From contig NZ_JABTCG010000001.1 of the NCBI RefSeq assembly GCF_014610845.1, positions 372,001-436,000 on the forward strand: 64,000 nt of DNA, read 5' to 3'. Shown in pieces: positions 54,226 through 63,968 of this stretch. Source of the stretch: Maribacter arenosus. GTDB taxonomy: Bacteria > Bacteroidota > Bacteroidia > Flavobacteriales > Flavobacteriaceae. Position 1 is the stretch's first letter, and every line of letters starts with the position of its first letter. Under the pieces are notes generated by a model. It was not told the origin of the DNA and searched no databases. It saw only the letters and a list, made by a program, of their open reading frames with translations. The position numbers and the translations under genes are program-made.

Positions 54226-55425
54226 TTAAAAAATCAAAAAATTAATGTCACTATATTGAAGGTCGAACCATTCACCTACGGCTTTGCTCGTGAGTATGCC
54301 ATGATATAAGTAGAGGCCATTCCGAAGCCCTTTGTCAAAACGAAGGGAATTTTCCAATCCGCCATCTTCCCCTAATTTCAAAAGGTAAGGGGTGAAAATA
54401 TTGCTGATTGAAATTGTAGCGGTTTTTGGATAGCGCGAGGGAATATTGGGAACACCATAATGTATAACCCCGTATTTCTCGATGGTGGGTTTATTGTGAT
54501 CAGTAACTTCACTGGTCTCAAAACAACCTCCCATATCAATACTTACATCAATAATAACCGCACCTTTCTTCATATGTTCTACCATGGTATTTGAAACTAC
54601 AACGGGTGCACGCTCCTTGCCCCGGACAGCACCAATGGCCACATCACATCTTTTTAATGATTTGATTAGGTTCTTTGGTTGAATGGTAGAAGTATAAACA
54701 GTTTGACCGAGGTTGGTCTGAATGGTTCTTAACTTTGTGATGGAGTTATCAAAAACCTTAACGTTAGCCCCTAAACCGATGGCCGATCGTGCTGCAAATT
54801 CACCCACCGTACCTGCGCCTATGATAACCACTTCGACCGGTGGTACGCCGCTAATGTTGCCGAACATAAGACCATTTCCTTTGTTGGTTGCCGCCATGAG
54901 TTCAGCCGCTATAAGCACCGAGGAAATCCCAGCAATTTCACTCAAGGAACGTACGGCTGGGTATTTACCATCCTCATCCATTATAAATTCAAAAGCAATG
55001 GCCGTTAAACGTTTCTTTGCCATTTTTTCGAAATACGCTTTCTGTTGTGTCTTGATCTGAAGGGCTGAAATAATCGTGGTCTGTGGATTCAGCATTTCAA
55101 TCTCTGAAAGGGTAGGGGGCTCTACTTTTAGTATTAAAGGGCATCCGAAGACTTTCTTTACATCATTGGTTACCTCGGCCCCGGCATTGGTATATTCAAT
55201 ATCGGTAAAATGTGCCCCTTCGCCAGCACCCGATTCTATGAGTACCCGGTGACCATGTGCGGTAATGGCATTGACCGCGTCCGGGGTAAGACATATTCGT
55301 TTTTCTTGATATTGGTTCTCTTTGGGTATGCCGATAAAAAGCTCCCCTTTTTGTTTTAACACTTCAAGGGTTTCTTCTTGTGGCAACAATTGTTGCTTGC
55401 TAAATGGCGAGGTGGGTTGCTTCAT
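54226..55425 (-). CDS. ald: Alanine dehydrogenase
   Basis: 399 residues. Alanine dehydrogenase / PNT N-terminal domain (IGIPKENQYQEKRICLTPDAV, with Lys and Arg substrate contacts) and NAD-binding domain (VEVVIIGAGTVGEFAARSAIGLGANVKVFDNS), then VIDVSIDMGGCFETSEVTDH and HYGVPNIPSRYP. Interconverts alanine and pyruvate plus ammonia with NAD. Slightly longer than the roughly 370-residue enzymes of Firmicutes, as usual in Bacteroidota. Single PNT transhydrogenase is excluded by the lack of membrane domains. Confidence 0.93.
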   Translation of the reverse strand: MKQPTSPFSKQQLLPQEETLEVLKQKGELFIGIPKENQYQEKRICLTPDAVNAITAHGHRVLIESGAGEGAHFTDIEYTNAGAEVTNDVKKVFGCPLILKVEPPTLSEIEMLNPQTTIISALQIKTQQKAYFEKMAKKRLTAIAFEFIMDEDGKYPAVRSLSEIAGISSVLIAAELMAATNKGNGLMFGNISGVPPVEVVIIGAGTVGEFAARSAIGLGANVKVFDNSITKLRTIQTNLGQTVYTSTIQPKNLIKSLKRCDVAIGAVRGKERAPVVVSNTMVEHMKKGAVIIDVSIDMGGCFETSEVTDHNKPTIEKYGVIHYGVPNIPSRYPKTATISISNIFTPYLLKLGEDGGLENSLRFDKGLRNGLYLYHGILTSKAVGEWFDLQYSDINFLIF

Positions 55426-55528: not shown

Positions 55529-56224
55529 TTAGAATTTCAAGTGTAGCCAACCTTTTAGACTGTCCTGGAAGTTTTTTAACTTTCTTTCAATATTATTGGT
55601 AGAAAAGGTAGTATTGAGATAATCTGAGAGCGATTCGTAATTATATACGTTATCCTCAACTCTCGCCTCGGAATCTAGAGCCTCAATATCTATTGAGTCT
55701 ATGTTGTTGTGTTGACTTTTCTTTTCATTCTGTTTGTAGTTGTTCAACTCTTTTTCCATTTCTTCCAAATCGATTCCTAAAACATGTTTGTCAAACAATT
55801 TAACCCTTATGAAATAAACAAACGGAATAATAACCATCATAATAGGAAGTAACCAATAGATTTCCACCTCATCCAAATATCTATCTTCATACAATAGTGA
55901 AGCAATTTGGAAAGCATACATTGCAATGGGAATCAATATAACATGGTACCACCAATGTTTACAAGTAAAAAACCACAAGACAAGTAAAATCAAAGGCACG
56001 AATTTGGCCATAAAAAGCCACATAACAGTTGTGATACTTTCTTGGTATTTACTTTCATAAACCATGAATGAAAGATCTAGAGTATTACCTGTAGGAAAAG
56101 ATCTATATGTATAGAAAATATAAGGTGTAATCGCAATGAGAATCGCGACAATACTACCAATTAATATGCTTCTTGATTTTCTCTTTCGAGAATTTTGGTC
56201 CGGGTTTTTCGTTTTCTTCGACAT
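55529..56224 (-). CDS. Unrecognised membrane protein with one four-helix K-x9-WF-x5-WW module
   Basis: I do not recognise a family. 231 residues from the ATG at 56224 (GTG at 56230 is the alternative). A basic N-terminus (SRKRKSR) precedes four transmembrane helices (about 20-38, 68-88, 90-110, 125-145) and a cytoplasmic acidic coiled-coil tail. Helices 2-3 carry K-x9-W-F-x5-W-W-x6-P (AKFVPLILLVLWFFTCKHWW), which recurs twice in the protein at 57174-58388; hydrophobic positions and loop lengths also agree, so the two proteins are homologous. It lies downstream of the small repeat lipoprotein gene, separated by a terminator. Confidence 0.82.
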   Translation of the reverse strand: MSKKTKNPDQNSRKRKSRSILIGSIVAILIAITPYIFYTYRSFPTGNTLDLSFMVYESKYQESITTVMWLFMAKFVPLILLVLWFFTCKHWWYHVILIPIAMYAFQIASLLYEDRYLDEVEIYWLLPIMMVIIPFVYFIRVKLFDKHVLGIDLEEMEKELNNYKQNEKKSQHNNIDSIDIEALDSEARVEDNVYNYESLSDYLNTTFSTNNIERKLKNFQDSLKGWLHLKF

Positions 56225-56258
56225 CTTCACTATGCTAGGTCATTGCTGATTTTATAAC

Positions 56259-56291
56259 AAAAAAAAAGGGCTTCTAGTATGTAGAAACCCC
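56259..56291 (-). terminator. Terminator after the small repeat lipoprotein gene
   Basis: On the minus strand: AGGGGTTTCTA (56291-56281), 5-base loop, TAGAAGCCC (56276-56268) and nine T. One G:T pair in the stem. It separates the 56.3-kb gene from the membrane-protein gene downstream. Confidence 0.85.
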
Positions 56292-56314
56292 TATTAATCG
56301 ATAAAATGATTAAT

Positions 56315-56500
56315 TTATCCGGCGCTTGGCACTTTTATTTTAGTTCTATCTATACCATTGGTGGGCACCTTTATTTTAGTTCTATCAATTGTTTCCTGAT
56401 TATACAGTTGATCTTCTTCAGCTGTTGAATTAGGTTCACAAGAAACAGCCATTAATACACCACATGCCAAAAGGCCAAAAAGTAGTCTCTTCATTTTCAT
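56315..56500 (-). CDS. 61-residue lipoprotein with two 12-residue C-terminal repeats
   Basis: Not recognised. Signal MKMKRLLFGLLACGVLMAVS, then lipobox Cys21. After a short acidic linker (EPNSTAEEDQLYNQET) come two copies of IDRTKIKVP(T/S)(N/A)G, residues 38-49 and 50-61, ending exactly at the stop. The repeats are basic and hydrophilic. It has its own terminator, and TATCGA-type repeats lie 76-142 bases upstream. A surface or periplasmic peptide role is possible; because it has a Sec/lipoprotein signal it is not itself an obvious substrate of the nearby C39 transporter. Confidence 0.8.
   Translation of the reverse strand: MKMKRLLFGLLACGVLMAVSCEPNSTAEEDQLYNQETIDRTKIKVPTNGIDRTKIKVPSAG
56328..56386. 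repeat. 36-bp pitch direct repeat in the small lipoprotein gene
   Basis: GGCACTTTTATTTTAGTTCT and onward (56328-56350) recurs as 56364-56386 with one base difference in 23. The 36-bp period equals 12 codons, matching the protein repeat. Confidence 0.85.
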
Positions 56501-56575
56501 TCTGATAGGTTTTTAGTTAGAAATTGGACAATTATAGCCGCAATGTAGGAAAAATAATCGAAATAAATTACCGTT

Positions 56576-56642
56576 TATCGAAAAAAACACACATTTAAAC
56601 GTCAAAAAAGGACATTTTATCGATTAAAATGTCATTCATCGA
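56576..56642. promoter_or_regulatory. Cluster of TATCGA-type repeats about two helical turns apart
   Basis: TATCGA at 56576-56581 and 56618-56623, CATCGA at 56637-56642 and a weaker ACGTCA at 56599-56604; successive pitches are 23, 19 and 19 bp. The second TATCGA sits inside a 23-bp dyad GACATTTTA-TCGAT-TAAAATGTC (56611-56633). ACCGTTTAT at 56570-56578 fits the LytTR half-site pattern. The set lies between tsaE and the small lipoprotein gene and resembles the pair upstream of the TPR kinase (3585-3611). Confidence 0.45.
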
Positions 56643-56687
56643 AAAGTATACAATAAAAAATAAGTCGGTGTCGTTTGCCGCCCAAGT

Positions 56688-57104
56688 CTATTCCGGGAGG
56701 ATGAGCGTTCGTGTAGATTCATCCATTACCTTAATGATTATTTCCGTAGCATCCGGCGGTATGAGCGATTTGATTTTTTCAGCCCATTCCATAAAAATCC
56801 AAACATCCCGATACAAATAATCCTCAATGCCCAGGTCAAGGGCCTCATGCTCATCATTCAAGCGATAAAAATCGAAATGATAGGCCAAAACCTGACCATG
56901 TTGATCCTGATATTCGTTAACAATACCAAAAGTAGGGCTACTCGCTTCACCCGCGCTGCCCAATTGCCGTACAATCGCCTTTATCAAAGTGGTTTTACCC
57001 GCGCCCATTTCACCATGGAAACATAGGATTTTTGAAGGTACTTGTTGAATCAGTTTATCAGCCACCTTATGAATCTGGCTTTCTTTGAAGGTGATTTTCT
57101 TCAT
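56688..57104 (-). CDS. tsaE: tRNA threonylcarbamoyladenosine biosynthesis ATPase TsaE
   Basis: 138 residues. P-loop FHGEMGAGKTTLIKAI, SSPTFGIVNEY, HFDFYRL and the C-terminal WAEKIKSLIP are characteristic. ATPase that powers TsaB/TsaD in making the t6A modification on ANN-reading tRNAs, an essential function. It sits between accessory genes here. Confidence 0.95.
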   Translation of the reverse strand: MKKITFKESQIHKVADKLIQQVPSKILCFHGEMGAGKTTLIKAIVRQLGSAGEASSPTFGIVNEYQDQHGQVLAYHFDFYRLNDEHEALDLGIEDYLYRDVWIFMEWAEKIKSLIPPDATEIIIKVMDESTRTLILPE

Positions 57105-57173
57105 TTCATCAAATAAATACTTTCATTTCTAAAACAAAATTTAACTTTACAATTACCACAAAGATATATTAGA

Positions 57174-58388
57174 ATGGGTTCTTTTTGGAAAAGAAAGTTT
57201 ATTTGGGATATTGCAATGGCTGTTTTGGTCATATTTCTCCCATTTTTAATTTATTTGCATTTATTTTTTGATGATAATACAAATTCATTTGTCATCTTGG
57301 GCTATGAATTTCACCATGATTTTCAGAGCAATATTGTATACACATGGTTATTACTTAACAAGTTAATTCCAATATCATTATTGATGCTATGGTTTTTGAA
57401 CAATTATTTTTGGTGGCGCTTCTTCATTTTTGTTCCTTTAGCTCTTTGGATAGATACTTTCGTTGGATTATCATTGGAGCTGCGAAATGTTATTGTTGAG
57501 AACAGGTTTTTATATTCGGTTCTTGGTATGCTAGTGATTTTTCCCCTTCTTATTTTTATACAAGGTTATTTAGAAAAATATAACTTATCTAATCGACTTA
57601 ATGCTTCCTTTAGAAACTGGTCAACATCTGAATATAAAAACCTATTTAGACAATTTAGCAATAAAACTTCCTCATTTATAGATTATAACAAGGTGATTCC
57701 TATAGAGGAAAAGTTAAGAAGTTTTTATTTTATTAATTTGACAATTAAAGGAAAATTTGAAAGATATTTTATCACCAAAAAGAAGGGAATACAGGTAAGG
57801 AAGTTTGATTTTTTAATAATATTCGTATTGGTTTTGATACCTTTCATCTATTATTCTGCATGGTTTTTTCCAGAGAACACGAAGAAATTTGAATTATTTT
57901 GGTTCACTATTGATAGCTACGGCTTTCATGATGTTTCTTTATTTATTTGGTTTGTAGGATCCAAAATTTGCATTTTGATACCTACTATTATTTGGTTTAT
58001 CACATCCCACAACTGGTGGCGATTTGCCATATTATCCCCAATTATTTTAACTGTTTATCAATTATGGGAGGCTGTACAATCAACTCGAATAGATGAAATT
58101 TGGTTTTCTCAGGCACTCCCTTTGATTATAATAATTATTGCTTTTCTATTGCTGATATCTAAAACAATAAATTATCAGTCTAAAATTTTAGATATTTACA
58201 ATACAATAGAAGGAGAAATTGAACAACTCTTGCAGAAAGTGGGAAAGGATTCTGAAACGAAAAGAAACAAACAGGTTTTGGAATATTTAAAGAAAAAAGA
58301 TAATAAGGAAGAAAAAGGTAAAGAAAAAATAGCTGCCCTTTTTAAAATAAGGGAAGAACTTTTAACACAATTAAAAACAAAAAACTAA
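57174..58388 (+). CDS. Unrecognised membrane protein, tandem duplication of the four-helix WW module
   Basis: 404 residues, no family recognised. Two homologous halves, each with four transmembrane helices: first about residues 10-135, second about 211-335. Each half carries K-x9-W-F-x5-W-W-x6-P (WW at 80-81 and 281-282, pitch 201 residues) in the same place as the single-module protein at 55529-56224. A hydrophilic linker joins the halves, and a Lys/Glu-rich coiled coil ends the protein. The DNA is more AT-rich than neighbouring housekeeping genes (30 G/C among the 120 bases 57241-57360). Its stop overlaps that of the convergent XRE gene. A membrane sensor or immunity role is possible but not shown. 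Confidence 0.85.
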   Translation: MGSFWKRKFIWDIAMAVLVIFLPFLIYLHLFFDDNTNSFVILGYEFHHDFQSNIVYTWLLLNKLIPISLLMLWFLNNYFWWRFFIFVPLALWIDTFVGLSLELRNVIVENRFLYSVLGMLVIFPLLIFIQGYLEKYNLSNRLNASFRNWSTSEYKNLFRQFSNKTSSFIDYNKVIPIEEKLRSFYFINLTIKGKFERYFITKKKGIQVRKFDFLIIFVLVLIPFIYYSAWFFPENTKKFELFWFTIDSYGFHDVSLFIWFVGSKICILIPTIIWFITSHNWWRFAILSPIILTVYQLWEAVQSTRIDEIWFSQALPLIIIIIAFLLLISKTINYQSKILDIYNTIEGEIEQLLQKVGKDSETKRNKQVLEYLKKKDNKEEKGKEKIAALFKIREELLTQLKTKN

Positions 58389-58780
58389 CCCTTTTTTCCC
58401 AATTTCTTTTGTGTACGTTCAATCTCTTCAGTTACTTCTTTTAAAAGTCGTTTTAGCTCCTCTTCTTGTCTTTCCTTGATTTTAGCTTCGATTATTTGCT
58501 CAATCTCAGTTTGTTTTTCCTTGGGCAGCTCCTCAAAATCCAAAATCAACTCTTCTTCATTCTCTTTGAGCATTTTACCTTCGCCAGTAATCAACCAATT
58601 AACATTTAGGTGGGGATACGTTTTTAGAATATTTTCTATAACATCACTGCCGATAGAGGCATTGTTCTTTTGCATACGCAAGATATACCCATTACTCGCA
58701 CCTATAGAGAGGTCAAACTGCCGGGCACTCAAACCCGCATATTTGATAAACTGCATTAAACGGTCAATGGTTTTAAGCAT
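58385..58780 (-). CDS. XRE-type helix-turn-helix regulator with coiled-coil tail
   Basis: 131 residues. N-terminal HTH (LSARQFDLSIGASNGYILRMQKNNASIGSDVIENILKTYPHLNVNWLITGEGKM) with the same ending as the XRE protein at 48026-48403, and a long Glu/Lys-rich coiled coil (residues 75-131). It lies 52 bases downstream of the VKOR-thioredoxin gene, same strand, so it may be co-transcribed with the export cassette. Confidence 0.88.
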   Translation of the reverse strand: MLKTIDRLMQFIKYAGLSARQFDLSIGASNGYILRMQKNNASIGSDVIENILKTYPHLNVNWLITGEGKMLKENEEELILDFEELPKEKQTEIEQIIEAKIKERQEEELKRLLKEVTEEIERTQKKLGKKG

Positions 58781-58832: not shown

Positions 58833-60461
58833 TTAATTTATATTGTGATATAAGTTGTTTCTTACCTCTGTTGTATTCATGTCAAGCACATCGACGATTT
58901 GGTCAATGGAATAATTGATTAATTTTTTATTGTTCAAATAGGTAGTTGGGGTGGTTTGAATATCTAACTTTTCAGACCATACATAATGATGCTTGATCAT
59001 ATCTTCTGCCATTTTATTATGATTTATTGGATATGTTTTTACAAATGCGTTCAAGTTTCCAACTTCAAACCATTTCCCCAATATTTCCTGGAATCCCAAC
59101 GTATCCTTTAAATAGTGACTTATAAGCATTGCCGATGTTAATAATTTAACTTTATCATTTTCTCGAAAACTTCCAACAAACCTTATTACAATCTTTGCAT
59201 AATTAGGATGTTTATTGAGTAAATTTACGATCGATGCATATTCTCGACCACAGGCCGGACAATAGGGGTTTATGGCCACGACCAAAATGTTCTTGGCTGT
59301 ATCACTACCCAAAATGATTTCGTGGGACAGAAAATCCATGTCCACTTCTTTTTGCTTTTGTTGAACATGTTGAAAGACTTCCCAATTATTCTTTATCCTT
59401 AGATATGAAAAATATAGTGTATTAAAACCTGAAGATTTTAGCAATTCTTTTTTCAAAAACATCCAGATAATAGATGGAAGAAATAAACTAAAAGAGAACA
59501 GGAATATTGTTTTGAGTTCAAAGTTTGGAAGTAACGAGGATTCACTAAAGTAATAATAACCTACTGCCGCTTCTGCCCAAAGTGCGGCAATTGTTGCCAA
59601 ACAGAGCGTACACCACTTTTTGATTACAAATCCCTGATAGAACAATGAAAAAATGGTGTACGGTAGTGCTAAAAAACTAGTGATAACCAGAAGTTTAAGA
59701 AGATCAATAGAAGTCTGTAAGGGAACAATTATTGAAATAACAAATATTATGATCGTACCTGTGAAATATAAGAAACCCATATCGGTCATCGACAACCAAT
59801 CAAATAATTTAGCTGCCGGGGAATTCAGAACATCATCACAGCTTATTTTTTTACCTACTTTGCAAATGCTATAACTGGTGTTTCTATTAATTTCTTTGTT
59901 GACCAAGGCCAAGGCAACCACCAATCCGAATACCTTAATAAAGAAGTAAGCCAGTATACGACTTGAACCTAAAGCGAAAACAATACCCAAAATCAATAGC
60001 GTTGAAAAAATTACAACTATTGAAAAACGTAAATTATTCAATAATTCAGTGTTCTTTTTCTTCTTATAATGCTCTTCAGTAACGGCACTTTCTGTATCCA
60101 CTAAAATCACCATTTTGTTCCACATTTTTGTGAAATCGTCTAGGGGCGTGTTTTTCCATCCCATTGATGGTGAAAAAAAATGCACATAATCATTTTCACT
60201 TTTTTTCACCAAGATGGTCTCTCCGCTATGGGTCGAAGCCAAAAAAGGAGTTTCCAACTGATTCAATTGTTCCGTCTTCACCTTTACAGCTTTGTTGGAA
60301 ATTCCAAAATTGGTCAAAGTATTTGTAATGGAAAATAAGGTTTGAAAAGAGGGATGTTGCAATAATTTTGCTCTAATAGTAGTATAGGTGATTTTATTGT
60401 TCAATAATTTGAACAACTCGTGTAATACACTGACAACGGGTTCTTTTTTTGATTTGAACAT
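58833..60461 (-). CDS. Pseudo-C39 / VKOR / thioredoxin fusion protein of a peptide-export cassette
   Basis: 542 residues in three parts. Residues about 1-125 align in layout with the C39 domain of the next gene (strand pattern TPFLASTHSGETILVKKSENDYVHFFSPSMGW) but lack the catalytic Cys. Residues about 140-320 are a VKOR membrane domain: Cys200 and Cys208 (spacing of eight as in known VKORs) and C284-T-L-C287. Residues about 385-540 are a thioredoxin/DsbA-like domain with C401-P-A-C404 and a cis-Pro region IQTTPTTYLNNK. This would form disulfides in exported peptides. It starts two bases after the transporter stop. Confidence 0.92.
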   Translation of the reverse strand: MFKSKKEPVVSVLHELFKLLNNKITYTTIRAKLLQHPSFQTLFSITNTLTNFGISNKAVKVKTEQLNQLETPFLASTHSGETILVKKSENDYVHFFSPSMGWKNTPLDDFTKMWNKMVILVDTESAVTEEHYKKKKNTELLNNLRFSIVVIFSTLLILGIVFALGSSRILAYFFIKVFGLVVALALVNKEINRNTSYSICKVGKKISCDDVLNSPAAKLFDWLSMTDMGFLYFTGTIIIFVISIIVPLQTSIDLLKLLVITSFLALPYTIFSLFYQGFVIKKWCTLCLATIAALWAEAAVGYYYFSESSLLPNFELKTIFLFSFSLFLPSIIWMFLKKELLKSSGFNTLYFSYLRIKNNWEVFQHVQQKQKEVDMDFLSHEIILGSDTAKNILVVAINPYCPACGREYASIVNLLNKHPNYAKIVIRFVGSFRENDKVKLLTSAMLISHYLKDTLGFQEILGKWFEVGNLNAFVKTYPINHNKMAEDMIKHHYVWSEKLDIQTTPTTYLNNKKLINYSIDQIVDVLDMNTTEVRNNLYHNIN

Positions 60462-60463
60462 AA

Positions 60464-62620
60464 TTATGATAATTGACTATTTACGAGGGTGTAATAATGC
60501 TCTTTTCTTTGTAATAAGGCTTGGTGTGTACCCTCCTCTACGATTTTACCTTTTTTCAGGACAACGATTTTATCTGCATATTTCACCGTACTCAGCCTAT
60601 GTGCTATAACTACCACTGTCTTGTTTCTAGTGGCGGCAATGAGGTTTTTCAATATTACCGTCTCATTTTCAGAATCCAGAGCGTTGGTTGCTTCATCGAA
60701 AAATATAAAGGAAGGATCTTTGTACAGAGCTCGTGCTATCAAAACCCGTTGTTGTTGTCCTTGGCTTAAGCCGACCCCTTCGCTCCCTATTTTGGTTTGG
60801 TATTGTAGCGGTAAAGATTCTATCCATTCCTTTATATAGGCAGCCTGTACCGAATTCAACAAACGTTCCATATCAATTGTTTCATATGTTTTTAATACTA
60901 TATTGTTCGCTATGGTATCGGCAAAAATGTAATTGTCTTGCATGACAACCCCGCACTGCTCACGCCAGTGATAATCGGAAACGTAATTTAGGTTTAGATT
61001 CCCAATCAATATTGCGCCTTCCGTTGGTTGGTATAGTTTCAATAAAAGTTTTAATAATGTGGTTTTTCCGCTACCACTTGCGCCTACGATGGCCGTAGTT
61101 TTATTATGCGGAATTTTTAGATTAATGTTGTTCAACACTTTGGGGGAGTGGGGGCCTTCATATTGAAAGGAAACATTTTCAAGTATAATGTCGCTCTCTT
61201 TTGAAATTGAGGTCGAGGTGGCATTATCATCCTGCTTTTTATTGATAACCTCTCCTAGACGCTCCAAACTTATCTTTGCGTCTTGATAGGAATGGGTCAA
61301 ACCTAAAAAAGAACTAAGCGGTGCTTGTATCTGGCCCATTATAAATTGAACAGACATCATCATTCCCAAAGTCATATCTCCTTCGATTACAGAAAGTGCG
61401 ACGATAAGGCTGATAACAACACCAACGACGGAGTTAATGACAGTAGCACCTGAAGATTGAAACTGATTCCATAACAGCACCTTTTTACTTAGTTTATAAC
61501 TTTTTGATTGTACACGTTCCCATTCCCAACGTTTTTCCTTTTCGATGTTGTTAAGAATAATTTCCCTGGCACCGTAAAACAGTTGTAGCAGTTTGTTTTC
61601 ACTGTCAGCGGCAATCTTAAAGCCTTCGTGATCAAATTCCCTTCTTTTCCGTAGAAATAACAAGATCCATCCGATGTACAGACCATTGCCCAATAAAAAA
61701 ATGAGCAATATTTTGTAATTGTAATAGGCAAGGATTGCAGTATAAATAACGAAGTTAAAAACGGAAACAATGACAGAAAAAAGCGATTGGTTCAAAAAGG
61801 ATTCGATTCTTGAATTATCACTGATACGCTTGGTAACATCGCCAACAGTCTTTAATTCAAAAAACGTAAATGGCATTTTCATTAATTTGGCCACATAGCC
61901 AATGACAAAGGAGAGGCTGATGCGAATGCTTAAATGCAACGATATCCATGACTGAATGAACGATATGACGGTGCTGCCAATGGTAAGCATTAATTGTGCT
62001 ATCAAAACCAAATAGATAAAGTTCACATTTCTCCCCAAAATACCAATGTCTACAACAGATTGCGTAATAAAAGGGGTCAATAGACTCACTAGACTGGAAA
62101 AAACTATGGCAAAGAAAACTTGGATCAACAAGTTCTTATGGGGTAGAAAGTATTTTAAAAAATGGGAGAAAGAAGCTTTTTCCTCTTCTTCTTGGTCGTA
62201 GAACTTGGGAGTAGTTTCCAGAAGCAATGCAATACTTTCTTGACCATTGCCACTCCATTGCATCTTAAGGTCTTGGTGCGAAATTTTGACCTTTCCCTTT
62301 GCGGGATCGGCGATATAGGCATTCTTTTTATCCGTTTTATATAGCACCACGAAATGCCTTCCTTCCCACGGTATAATGCACGGCAGTGGCACCTTTTTTA
62401 AAAGCGTGAACAAATCCACTCGTGTGCCTAAGGACTTAAGACCTATACTTTCTGCCGCATGACTAATGCCCATTAATGATACACCTTCCCTAGTGATATA
62501 ACTGAGCTCACGTAACCGATCCAATGAAATATCTTTCCCGTAATGTTTGGCTACCATACGAAGACAAGTTGGCCCACAGTCCATTTTATCAAATTGTTTA
62601 TATGTAGTAAATCCTGCCAT
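60464..62620 (-). CDS. C39-peptidase-containing ABC transporter (PCAT)
   Basis: 718 residues. N-terminal C39 cysteine peptidase with catalytic Cys15 (KMDCGPTCL), His89 (WEGRHFVVLY) and Asp105 (ADPAKG); six-helix ABC exporter domain (about 165-450); nucleotide-binding domain with Walker A GASGSGKTTLLKLL, signature LSQGQQQRVLIARAL and Walker B FIFFDEATNALD. Such proteins cut a double-glycine leader from small peptides and export them. Sixty-seven bases downstream of the HlyD-type gene. The substrate peptide gene is not visible in the window. Confidence 0.95.
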   Translation of the reverse strand: MAGFTTYKQFDKMDCGPTCLRMVAKHYGKDISLDRLRELSYITREGVSLMGISHAAESIGLKSLGTRVDLFTLLKKVPLPCIIPWEGRHFVVLYKTDKKNAYIADPAKGKVKISHQDLKMQWSGNGQESIALLLETTPKFYDQEEEEKASFSHFLKYFLPHKNLLIQVFFAIVFSSLVSLLTPFITQSVVDIGILGRNVNFIYLVLIAQLMLTIGSTVISFIQSWISLHLSIRISLSFVIGYVAKLMKMPFTFFELKTVGDVTKRISDNSRIESFLNQSLFSVIVSVFNFVIYTAILAYYNYKILLIFLLGNGLYIGWILLFLRKRREFDHEGFKIAADSENKLLQLFYGAREIILNNIEKEKRWEWERVQSKSYKLSKKVLLWNQFQSSGATVINSVVGVVISLIVALSVIEGDMTLGMMMSVQFIMGQIQAPLSSFLGLTHSYQDAKISLERLGEVINKKQDDNATSTSISKESDIILENVSFQYEGPHSPKVLNNINLKIPHNKTTAIVGASGSGKTTLLKLLLKLYQPTEGAILIGNLNLNYVSDYHWREQCGVVMQDNYIFADTIANNIVLKTYETIDMERLLNSVQAAYIKEWIESLPLQYQTKIGSEGVGLSQGQQQRVLIARALYKDPSFIFFDEATNALDSENETVILKNLIAATRNKTVVVIAHRLSTVKYADKIVVLKKGKIVEEGTHQALLQRKEHYYTLVNSQLS

Positions 62621-62687
62621 TTTCGCGCTTATGATTTCTATTTTAATTTTTGGGTTTGGTTCTTGGATTTGGAAATATTATATATGC

Positions 62688-63968
62688 TTAATTTTTAAAG
62701 AGGCTCTCAAATTGATAAAAGATACGTCCCAAGACACTTTGGTCTTTTGTCACAATATCCGCTGTGGCAGTCAGGCGTTGTTTGAATACAATTTTGTTTT
62801 CATAATTGGTGGTAAGCCCATTGGGAAGTTCGATTATAATACTGTACAGATTTTCAATCGGGATTTCTGAAATCCTGGTCACCGTGCCCTCTACGGTACC
62901 ATATTCATGATAGGGGTAGGCATCCAGTTTTAGGATTACCTTATTGCCTTTTTTTACTTTCCCGGCATTTGCCACAGGAAACATGCCCACCGCCTGTAAT
63001 TTTTGCTCTTGAAAGGGGATAATGGTCAATACCCGCTCCCCAGCCGTGATAAAATCCCCTTCATTGATCTCGTTAAAAAAGGAAAGTCGACCTGTTATGG
63101 GAGCAGAGATCAAATACTGATTTTCCCATTCCTCCAATTGGCTTCTAAGCTCATTCAGTGATTTTAAATAATTGCCCTGTAATTGCTGTTCATATTCTTT
63201 TTTTTGAAGGTCCAATTCCATGATTTCGCGTTCCAGATTAGCAAGGGACATACGTTCGGCATTCAGGCTTTTATGGTCGTTGGCATAGCCCATTTCTTTT
63301 TGTAACAATGTTTGTTTGATCTGTTCGAATTCAGAGGCCGAAATGACCCCTTTTTTATAGAGTGTCTCGTAACGGTCGTGTTCTTTTTGTTTGAGTATGT
63401 AATCTTTTTCACTGCTCTTTAGGTAGTTTTTCGAATATGTTAGTCCTCGAGCGTTACCGGTTTTAATGTTTTGCAGACTTTTTATACGCTGATCATAGGG
63501 TAGTTCTATGTTGTAATTCTTCAAGTTGAGTGCTGCCAGGGCAAAGCTGTTATATACTGGTTGTAGCATACCCAAACTGTCGAGCCAGACATTCGTATAG
63601 TCTAAAAATGTGTCCGGAACCGTAGGTCCTAGATTTTTATATAGTTGTTGCACCTGCGCATAAGAAGTGGCACTTTCAAGCATTAAAATAGGTTCTCCCT
63701 TAAAAATAGTGTCGTTTTCAGCCAAGGGAAACCGCTTTACGATAGGGGCGTTTATCTTTGCCACCACATCAGAAGGGGGTCTTGGTGTGGTAATATTCAC
63801 CTGGCCGACTATAATATCAGGGTATTTCACCAACCAGGCCGCCAAAAGGAATAACATAAGAAAAAAAAGCATCGCCCCGATACCATAACGGATGAGCCAA
63901 TTAGGTTTTTTTTCTATAATTTCGTTGATATGGGGACTAAAGTGCTGTTGTATTGATTTAGTTTCCAA
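62688..63968 (-). CDS. HlyD-family periplasmic adaptor of the peptide-export cassette
   Basis: At least 426 residues. Cytoplasmic N-terminus, one transmembrane helix (YGIGAMLFFLMLFLLAAWLV), lipoyl halves (ATTRPPSDVVAKINAPIVKRF region and SAPITGRLSFFNEINEGDFITAGERVLTI), an alpha-helical hairpin (about 165-275) and a beta-barrel. The first codon at 63968 is TTG, and the same frame stays open to base 64000 without an ATG, so the true start may lie outside the window; the TTG start gives a length usual for the family. Links the ABC exporter to an outer-membrane channel encoded elsewhere. Confidence 0.9.
   Translation of the reverse strand: METKSIQQHFSPHINEIIEKKPNWLIRYGIGAMLFFLMLFLLAAWLVKYPDIIVGQVNITTPRPPSDVVAKINAPIVKRFPLAENDTIFKGEPILMLESATSYAQVQQLYKNLGPTVPDTFLDYTNVWLDSLGMLQPVYNSFALAALNLKNYNIELPYDQRIKSLQNIKTGNARGLTYSKNYLKSSEKDYILKQKEHDRYETLYKKGVISASEFEQIKQTLLQKEMGYANDHKSLNAERMSLANLEREIMELDLQKKEYEQQLQGNYLKSLNELRSQLEEWENQYLISAPITGRLSFFNEINEGDFITAGERVLTIIPFQEQKLQAVGMFPVANAGKVKKGNKVILKLDAYPYHEYGTVEGTVTRISEIPIENLYSIIIELPNGLTTNYENKIVFKQRLTATADIVTKDQSVLGRIFYQFESLFKN

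Follow-up and report, generated by a model that had tools for sequence, protein, structure and literature searches.

Several described systems join a small secreted peptide to a membrane partner or release it from a larger precursor. In the enterococcal lipoprotein-derived sex pheromones, the signal peptide is the pheromone. Yeast alpha-factor-like precursors contain tandem near-identical peptide copies, sometimes with basic residues between them, and small multi-transmembrane bacteriocin immunity proteins are encoded beside the peptide gene. The staphylococcal agr system includes AgrA, a LytTR regulator. In agr, a hypervariable segment spans parts of neighbouring genes and changes specificity (PMC12312760). 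Here we describe a gene pair of Maribacter arenosus (Flavobacteriaceae) consisting of a gene for a small, predicted secreted peptide and the adjacent gene of a four-transmembrane (4-TM) protein, P1. It lies in a stretch of 64,000 nucleotides of contig NZ_JABTCG010000001.1, hereafter the window. In the P1 family, the two genes form a nearly universal pair and co-vary, and in two cases they have been replaced jointly. A sequence-only reading of the window had noticed a module present once in P1 and twice in a second protein, P2, and had taken it for a real functional unit. The module is indeed conserved. However, the unit is larger, as it includes a dedicated secreted-peptide gene that was overlooked.

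Like agr, the pair combines a small secreted peptide gene with a multi-transmembrane protein, seems to share between the two a specificity segment exchanged as a unit (by analogy, not homology), and possibly has LytTR-type repeats upstream of the peptide gene. Unlike agr, it contains no AgrB protease, histidine kinase (AgrC) or linked LytTR response regulator (AgrA). The precursor is a candidate Sec lipoprotein and is not AgrD-like, the 4-TM partner has no kinase, and the host is a Gram-negative member of Bacteroidota. No homology to agr was found, and instead of the operon with AgrC and AgrA that marks agr, the neighbours are tsaE, ald, proline dehydrogenase (PRODH), aroB and a porX-like gene. 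Lacking the defining genes, the pair belongs neither to agr nor to another named family, and the likeness is in logic only. A small lipoprotein as the possible source of a peptide in a secreted-peptide system recalls the enterococcal pheromones, but here it is the C-terminal tail that co-varies with a membrane partner. The tandem near-identical copies recall alpha-factor precursors, but the precursor is a bacterial lipoprotein and the partner is no G protein-coupled receptor. The chances are about even that the peptide gene and P1 constitute a polymorphic two-gene peptide–receptor recognition cassette, with agr-like logic and unrelated parts.

The peptide gene and P1

The cassette in the window consists of the following features.

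56315..56500, minus strand: peptide precursor gene between tsaE and P1, 61 aa; lipobox-bearing signal sequence (Cys21), acidic spacer, and a pair of C-terminal repeats
56354..56389, minus strand: peptide repeat 1, 12 residues, IDRTKIKVPTNG (translation)
56318..56353, minus strand: peptide repeat 2, 12 residues at the C-terminus, near-identical to repeat 1, IDRTKIKVPSAG (translation)
55529..56230, minus strand: P1, 233 aa from GTG at 56230 (an alternative ATG start at 56224 is the end given in the sequence-only reading), with a single 4-TM module and a predicted cytoplasmic C-terminal tail
55928-56005, minus strand: P1 motif K.{9}WF.{5}WW.{6}P, starting at P1 residue 76

A peptide gene is located directly upstream of 132 of the 144 single-module genes, at loci chosen by P1 and not by the peptide, and of none of the 12 double-module genes. 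The 12 single-module exceptions are nine P2-type genes, one gene at a contig edge (L077), and two genes with weakly scoring upstream peptides (L114, L135). All 149 peptide matches in the fetched loci adjoin a family member (matches outside Flavobacteriaceae cover mostly the signal sequence alone and were not counted). At loci with apparently no room for a peptide gene, the gene is present in another frame, overlapping the start of P1 as annotated. The peptide gene is a real gene, since the nonsynonymous substitution rate (dN) in 21 Arenibacter pairs is 0.06 against a synonymous rate (dS) of 0.93, that is, it is under purifying selection. In nearly all members the order is tsaE, peptide gene, P1, ald, a small conserved gene, PRODH, aroB; beyond tsaE lies the porX-like gene (Response_reg and PglZ domains). 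The two genes also stay paired at copies outside this locus (L042, L047, L055, L058). The neighbours of off-locus copies (mutS, YceI, AbgT transporter, integrase) form no pattern that would hint at a function.

The precursor of the window reads MKMKRLLFGLLACGVLMAVSC EPNSTAEEDQLYNQET IDRTKIKVPTNG IDRTKIKVPSAG. Its ...MAVSC conforms to the lipobox pattern; signal sequences and lipoboxes were judged by pattern. A lipobox is found in 110 of the 132 family precursors. The other 22 have lost it but retain the signal sequence and the tail, and thus secretion seems to be more important than lipidation. Repeats are present in 20 of the 132 precursors, for instance VDKTKIPSQAKKQSF repeated, VDRTKIINGDKKS three times and IDRTKIKKLPSNG repeated, and up to seven peptide genes may stand in a row. 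Such precursors and multiple gene copies resemble other repeat-bearing peptide precursors, an analogy that favours the peptide–receptor cassette.

Alternatively, the small lipoprotein might serve P1 as a structural subunit or clamp in a membrane complex that has a role in the envelope and no cell-to-cell function. We consider this rather improbable. It would fit the conserved core locus and the fact that most precursors are lipoproteins, but a structural subunit would not usually contain tandem repeats, occur in as many as seven gene copies, lose its lipidation in several lineages or show specificity-like replacement.

Several cassettes occur in tandem in Kordia and Aequorivita. In Kordia (L136, L089, L093, L111, L112, L125) there are three peptide–P1 cassettes, each peptide having a different tail. 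In Sinomicrobium weinanense (L114, 3042-6495), two consecutive double-module genes are followed by an open reading frame (ORF) upstream of P1 that repeats SVGIVAVDKETMEKG and is apparently a divergent repeat-bearing precursor.

The module of P1 is shared with the second protein.

57174..58388, plus strand: P2, 404 aa, with two 4-TM modules and a charged C-terminal tail
57360-57437 and 57963-58040, plus strand: P2 motifs, starting at P2 residues 63 and 264

The three copies of the motif with identical spacing, the copies in P2 being 201 residues apart, were correctly described in the sequence-only reading. In the 506 ORFs of the window that have at least 30 aa, the strict motif K.{9}WF.{5}WW.{6}P is found three times and no more, and none of 20,000 shuffles of P1 contains it. 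The homology is significant: BLASTP of P1 against the two halves of P2 yields E=1e-11 and 1e-9, and the halves match one another at E=2e-9. A family profile built without the window sequences finds both halves (E=2.5e-32 and 2.2e-19, Z=1e6), so that the profile match by which the proposed duplication stands or falls is present. Residues K76, W86, W93, W94 and P101 are invariant across 45 P1 homologues; hence the K-x9-WF-x5-WW-x6-P motif is the conserved core and signature of the family. The family is defined by the relaxed pattern K-x9-W-x6-WW-x6-P in a 4-TM module, present in 150 of 156 family genes, 145 of which have the strict motif.

In the AlphaFold models (pLDDT 80.5 for P1; 66.8 for P2, with only eight rows in the alignment) all three copies consist of a long helix, a beta hairpin and three helices in the same order, in line with the shared helix layout noted earlier. 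The helices are hydrophobic and form a 4-TM domain, which corrects the earlier description as a "four-helix module". The distribution of charges suggests that both termini are inside, with the hairpin loop between TM1 and TM2 outside and the WF-x5-WW turn inside. A soluble four-helix bundle was ruled out by the hydrophobic helices and the conserved lysine K76 in the middle of TM2. Both proteins had been credited with charged coiled-coil tails. The tail of P2 does have this appearance, whereas that of P1 is acidic, with a middle part of low model confidence and an amphipathic helix at the end.

Another possibility is that P1 matures or transports the peptide, as AgrB does, and that the receptor is encoded elsewhere in the genome. 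The co-variation of the tail described below would equally fit a dedicated processing protein, and P1 has no signalling domain. However, a precursor with a standard signal sequence needs no dedicated exporter, and the invariant residues K76, W86, W93, W94 and P101 include no usual nucleophile, C90 and H92 not being conserved. The lack of an invariant nucleophile led us to reject P1 as a protease or processing enzyme, and the wider possibility is unlikely.

P1 and P2 have no significant match in Pfam. When 45 P1 homologues were scanned one by one against Pfam and NCBIfam, only scattered weak matches were obtained. P2, the peptide, and P3, a divergent partner described below, match no NCBIfam family above the curated cut-off, and P3 has no match in Pfam. 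None of the PADLOC models matches, and Foldseek with the P1 model finds no significant fold match (best E=2.3 in PDB and 0.07 in the viral library). Thus no annotated domain accounts for the module, which is new, as had been proposed, and P1 represents an unnamed, Flavobacteriaceae-wide family of membrane proteins. Family members are encoded in 45 of 99 relatives of the M. arenosus genome and at no fewer than 577 loci of a species-representative collection. The best 80 of these at least 577 loci nearly all belong to named Flavobacteriaceae (one is Cytophaga sp. FL35). Convincing matches in class- and phylum-wide samples are confined to the same family, and one double-module protein (L070) is from another family of the order.

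The peptide could be a toxin that inhibits competitors, with the 4-TM protein protecting the producer and P2-type genes being orphan immunity genes. The pair is adjacent, polymorphic and exchanged jointly, tandem cassettes exist in Kordia and Aequorivita, and peptide-less paralogues are found nearby; bacteriocin immunity proteins likewise are small multi-transmembrane proteins next to a peptide gene. However, the tails are short and hydrophilic and do not resemble toxins, no sequence match to immunity proteins was found, and neither PADLOC nor the toxin and immunity models of NCBIfam are matched. Besides, the cassette mostly occupies a single fixed locus of the core chromosome, unlike mobile toxin systems. 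Toxin–immunity is therefore an unlikely explanation.

Co-variation and joint replacement

Tail distances and P1 membrane-domain distances, taken over 100 loci, are correlated (r=0.65, and 0.62 after controlling for ald and tsaE), although the Mantel test separates function only incompletely from linkage and shared ancestry. The correlation of the tail with ald is 0.18 at the same loci, and that with tsaE is 0.13 after ald and P1 are taken into account. The signal segment was not used as a control, as it takes in the first repeat of double-repeat precursors.

In the window itself, a part of the cassette has been replaced.

55710..56385 (approximate ends), minus strand: replaced segment with Arenibacter-like peptide tail and P1 membrane domain in otherwise Maribacter-like DNA

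Here tsaE, the intergenic region, the signal sequence and spacer of the peptide, the C-tail of P1, and ald resemble Maribacter. An independent replacement distinguishes loci L041 and L057, which have 42-73% identity over the stretch that starts with the peptide tail and takes in most of the P1 membrane domain, and much higher identity in the near upstream region and peptide signal (83-95%), the P1 C-tail (92-97%) and ald (90-100%). In both cases the breakpoints lie inside both genes and at similar places. Such a pattern looks like the trace expected from the exchange of a specificity unit.

If the co-variation reflected linkage alone, neighbours would be exchanged together without functional pairing. 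The peptide and P1 genes are indeed adjacent or overlapping. However, the equally close tsaE shows a much weaker correlation, the breakpoints in the two replacements fall inside the genes, the pair is maintained at the off-locus copies, and P3-type partners at other loci have a tail type of their own. Linkage alone is insufficient because the peptide signal and the P1 C-tail remain native, and we regard this explanation as very improbable. A specific pairing of the peptide with P1 is well supported.

The P3 partners were found by a search of the M. arenosus genome with the peptide. On another contig it revealed a second peptide gene (E=2e-5; L169:6400-6549) which overlaps the gene of a 170-aa 4-TM protein, P3, missed by the P1/P2 search of the same genome. 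Downstream of this cassette (L169:6400-7284, contig C12) lie a sulfatase gene and an ORF of 101 aa whose family is unknown. Relatives of P3 in other genomes are accompanied by a peptide gene in six of six cases, and in three more. Their tails, IDKDEITEDDT, IKKMEIKDSDV, IDTREVKNEDT and IDGKEIKNQDT, differ from the tails of P1-type cassettes, and therefore each partner family goes with its own type of tail. Profile comparison shows P3 to be homologous to P1, with an alignment over the whole membrane domain (hhalign, probability 96.2%, E=2e-9, 133 columns). In the reverse direction, 50 loci were tested, the majority of which had been found with the peptide profile. Of their 61 peptides, 49 have a partner of the P1 or P3 type downstream. 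Eleven others are in stretches too short to reach the partner, and one (L258 of G596:C7, about 1632-2400) precedes a 214-aa predicted 4-TM protein that matches neither profile and may represent a third partner family. In one P3-type gene (319 aa; L182:3236-4195) the module is duplicated internally; this gene does have a peptide gene, unlike double P1-type genes.

A candidate recognition system

If the cassette is indeed a peptide–receptor pair, it may work as follows. Firstly, as predicted from its sequence, the precursor would be exported via Sec as a lipoprotein, except that some lineages lack the lipobox. Secondly, the active ligand would be the short segment at its C-terminus, which is often present several times, either in one gene or in several gene copies. 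Thirdly, P1, an inner-membrane protein with a predicted outward beta hairpin, would bind it as a specific receptor and pass the signal via its cytoplasmic C-tail. P1 has no recognisable kinase or other enzymatic domain, and therefore a separate downstream partner would have to take over. Lineages may swap the tail and the P1 membrane domain jointly while keeping the signal sequence and the C-tail, as in a swap of pheromone specificity, and in this way tails and membrane domains could diversify into recognition groups. P2, being a peptide-less paralogue, might act as a co-receptor, a modulator, or a sequestering decoy.

The region upstream of the peptide gene gives a further hint.

56569..56644, minus strand: array of TTTCGATGAAATGCA-like direct repeats preceding the peptide gene, with distances of 19 and 42 bp between sites

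Direct repeats of TTTCGATGAAATGCA with a spacing of 19-21 or 42 bp precede many peptide genes of the family. At least two sites are present in 42 of 132 upstream regions compared to 1.3 expected from shuffles, a count that is optimistic, as the motif was refined on the same sequences and close relatives were counted several times, although the phasing is less affected. LytTR regulators typically recognise direct repeats two helical turns apart. The sequence whose direct repeat is bound by YpdB, GGCATTTCAT (PMC4847170), is close to TGCATTTCATCG, the reverse complement of the array motif. This helically phased array thus resembles LytTR sites, and is at most suggestive of agr-like self-activated expression of the peptide. 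A pattern search of the M. arenosus genome for further array sites gave five against three in a reversed control, and this signal is weak. A similar phased array is located in contig C18 of this genome (L268:1544-2765) near two small secreted proteins sharing the C-terminal sequence KKALAFTTKxxxPKLS/A; this may be a further secreted peptide with the same regulator.

Several observations weigh against the recognition cassette, in addition to the limit of the Mantel test given above. The main weakness is the absence, in the compared loci, of a consistent link between the cassette and a gene for a kinase, a regulator or another signalling component. Column-wise coupling between P1 and the tail is not clearly enriched on the predicted outer side; it is highest for Y40, the position of which is predicted to be the outer end of TM1. 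A housekeeping role in the envelope would likewise agree with the fixed position on the chromosome that the cassette has in most of the family.

A broader and more tentative picture is that of Flavobacteriaceae-wide peptide communication, which would comprise a repeat-bearing lipoprotein pheromone precursor, a superfamily of kinase-less 4-TM receptors (P1, P3 and possibly more), exchangeable specificity modules and an autoregulatory promoter controlled by LytTR, and would be unrelated to known quorum sensing. In the databases searched, no part of the cassette is related to a known system; if this reading is right, the general principle, a peptide whose membrane partner varies with it, is a familiar one. 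The open literature searched contains no description of the cassette, nor of such a dedicated system of peptide signalling or pheromones in Bacteroidota. In most of a major family of marine bacteria the cassette is found at a single conserved locus, and yet it has no family name. If it is a ligand–receptor pair, the C-terminal tails directly provide peptides for testing and predict who recognises whom. If toxin–immunity or another explanation holds, it is still a widespread, unnamed and co-varying secreted-peptide system.

Neighbouring genes and the origin of P2

The remaining features of the region are the following.

54226..55425, minus strand: ald, putative alanine dehydrogenase, named by eye from the sequence; conserved downstream landmark
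56688..57104, minus strand: tsaE (TsaE, E=3e-35); conserved upstream neighbour, a landmark outside the cassette
58385..58780, minus strand: 131-aa gene convergent with P2; helix-turn-helix (HTH)-like by eye, no Pfam match

Next to P2, on the minus strand at 58833-63968, there is a peptide-export operon encoding a VKOR–thioredoxin–C39-like fusion, an ABC transporter with C39 peptidase and an HlyD-type protein. It is absent from every related locus compared.

P2 has no peptide gene of its own. In related genomes (L044, L050) the P2-type is a tandem of two separate genes, each of about 197 aa, and the 131-aa HTH-like gene is next to them as well, whereas in the window it is a single fused gene. 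This explains P2 as the product of a duplication, that is, a fused-duplicate, peptide-less paralogue of P1. The 131-aa HTH-like gene accompanies P2-type genes in most genomes, adjoining them in L032-L035, L044, L050, L094, L098, L099, L100, L108, L110 and L142.

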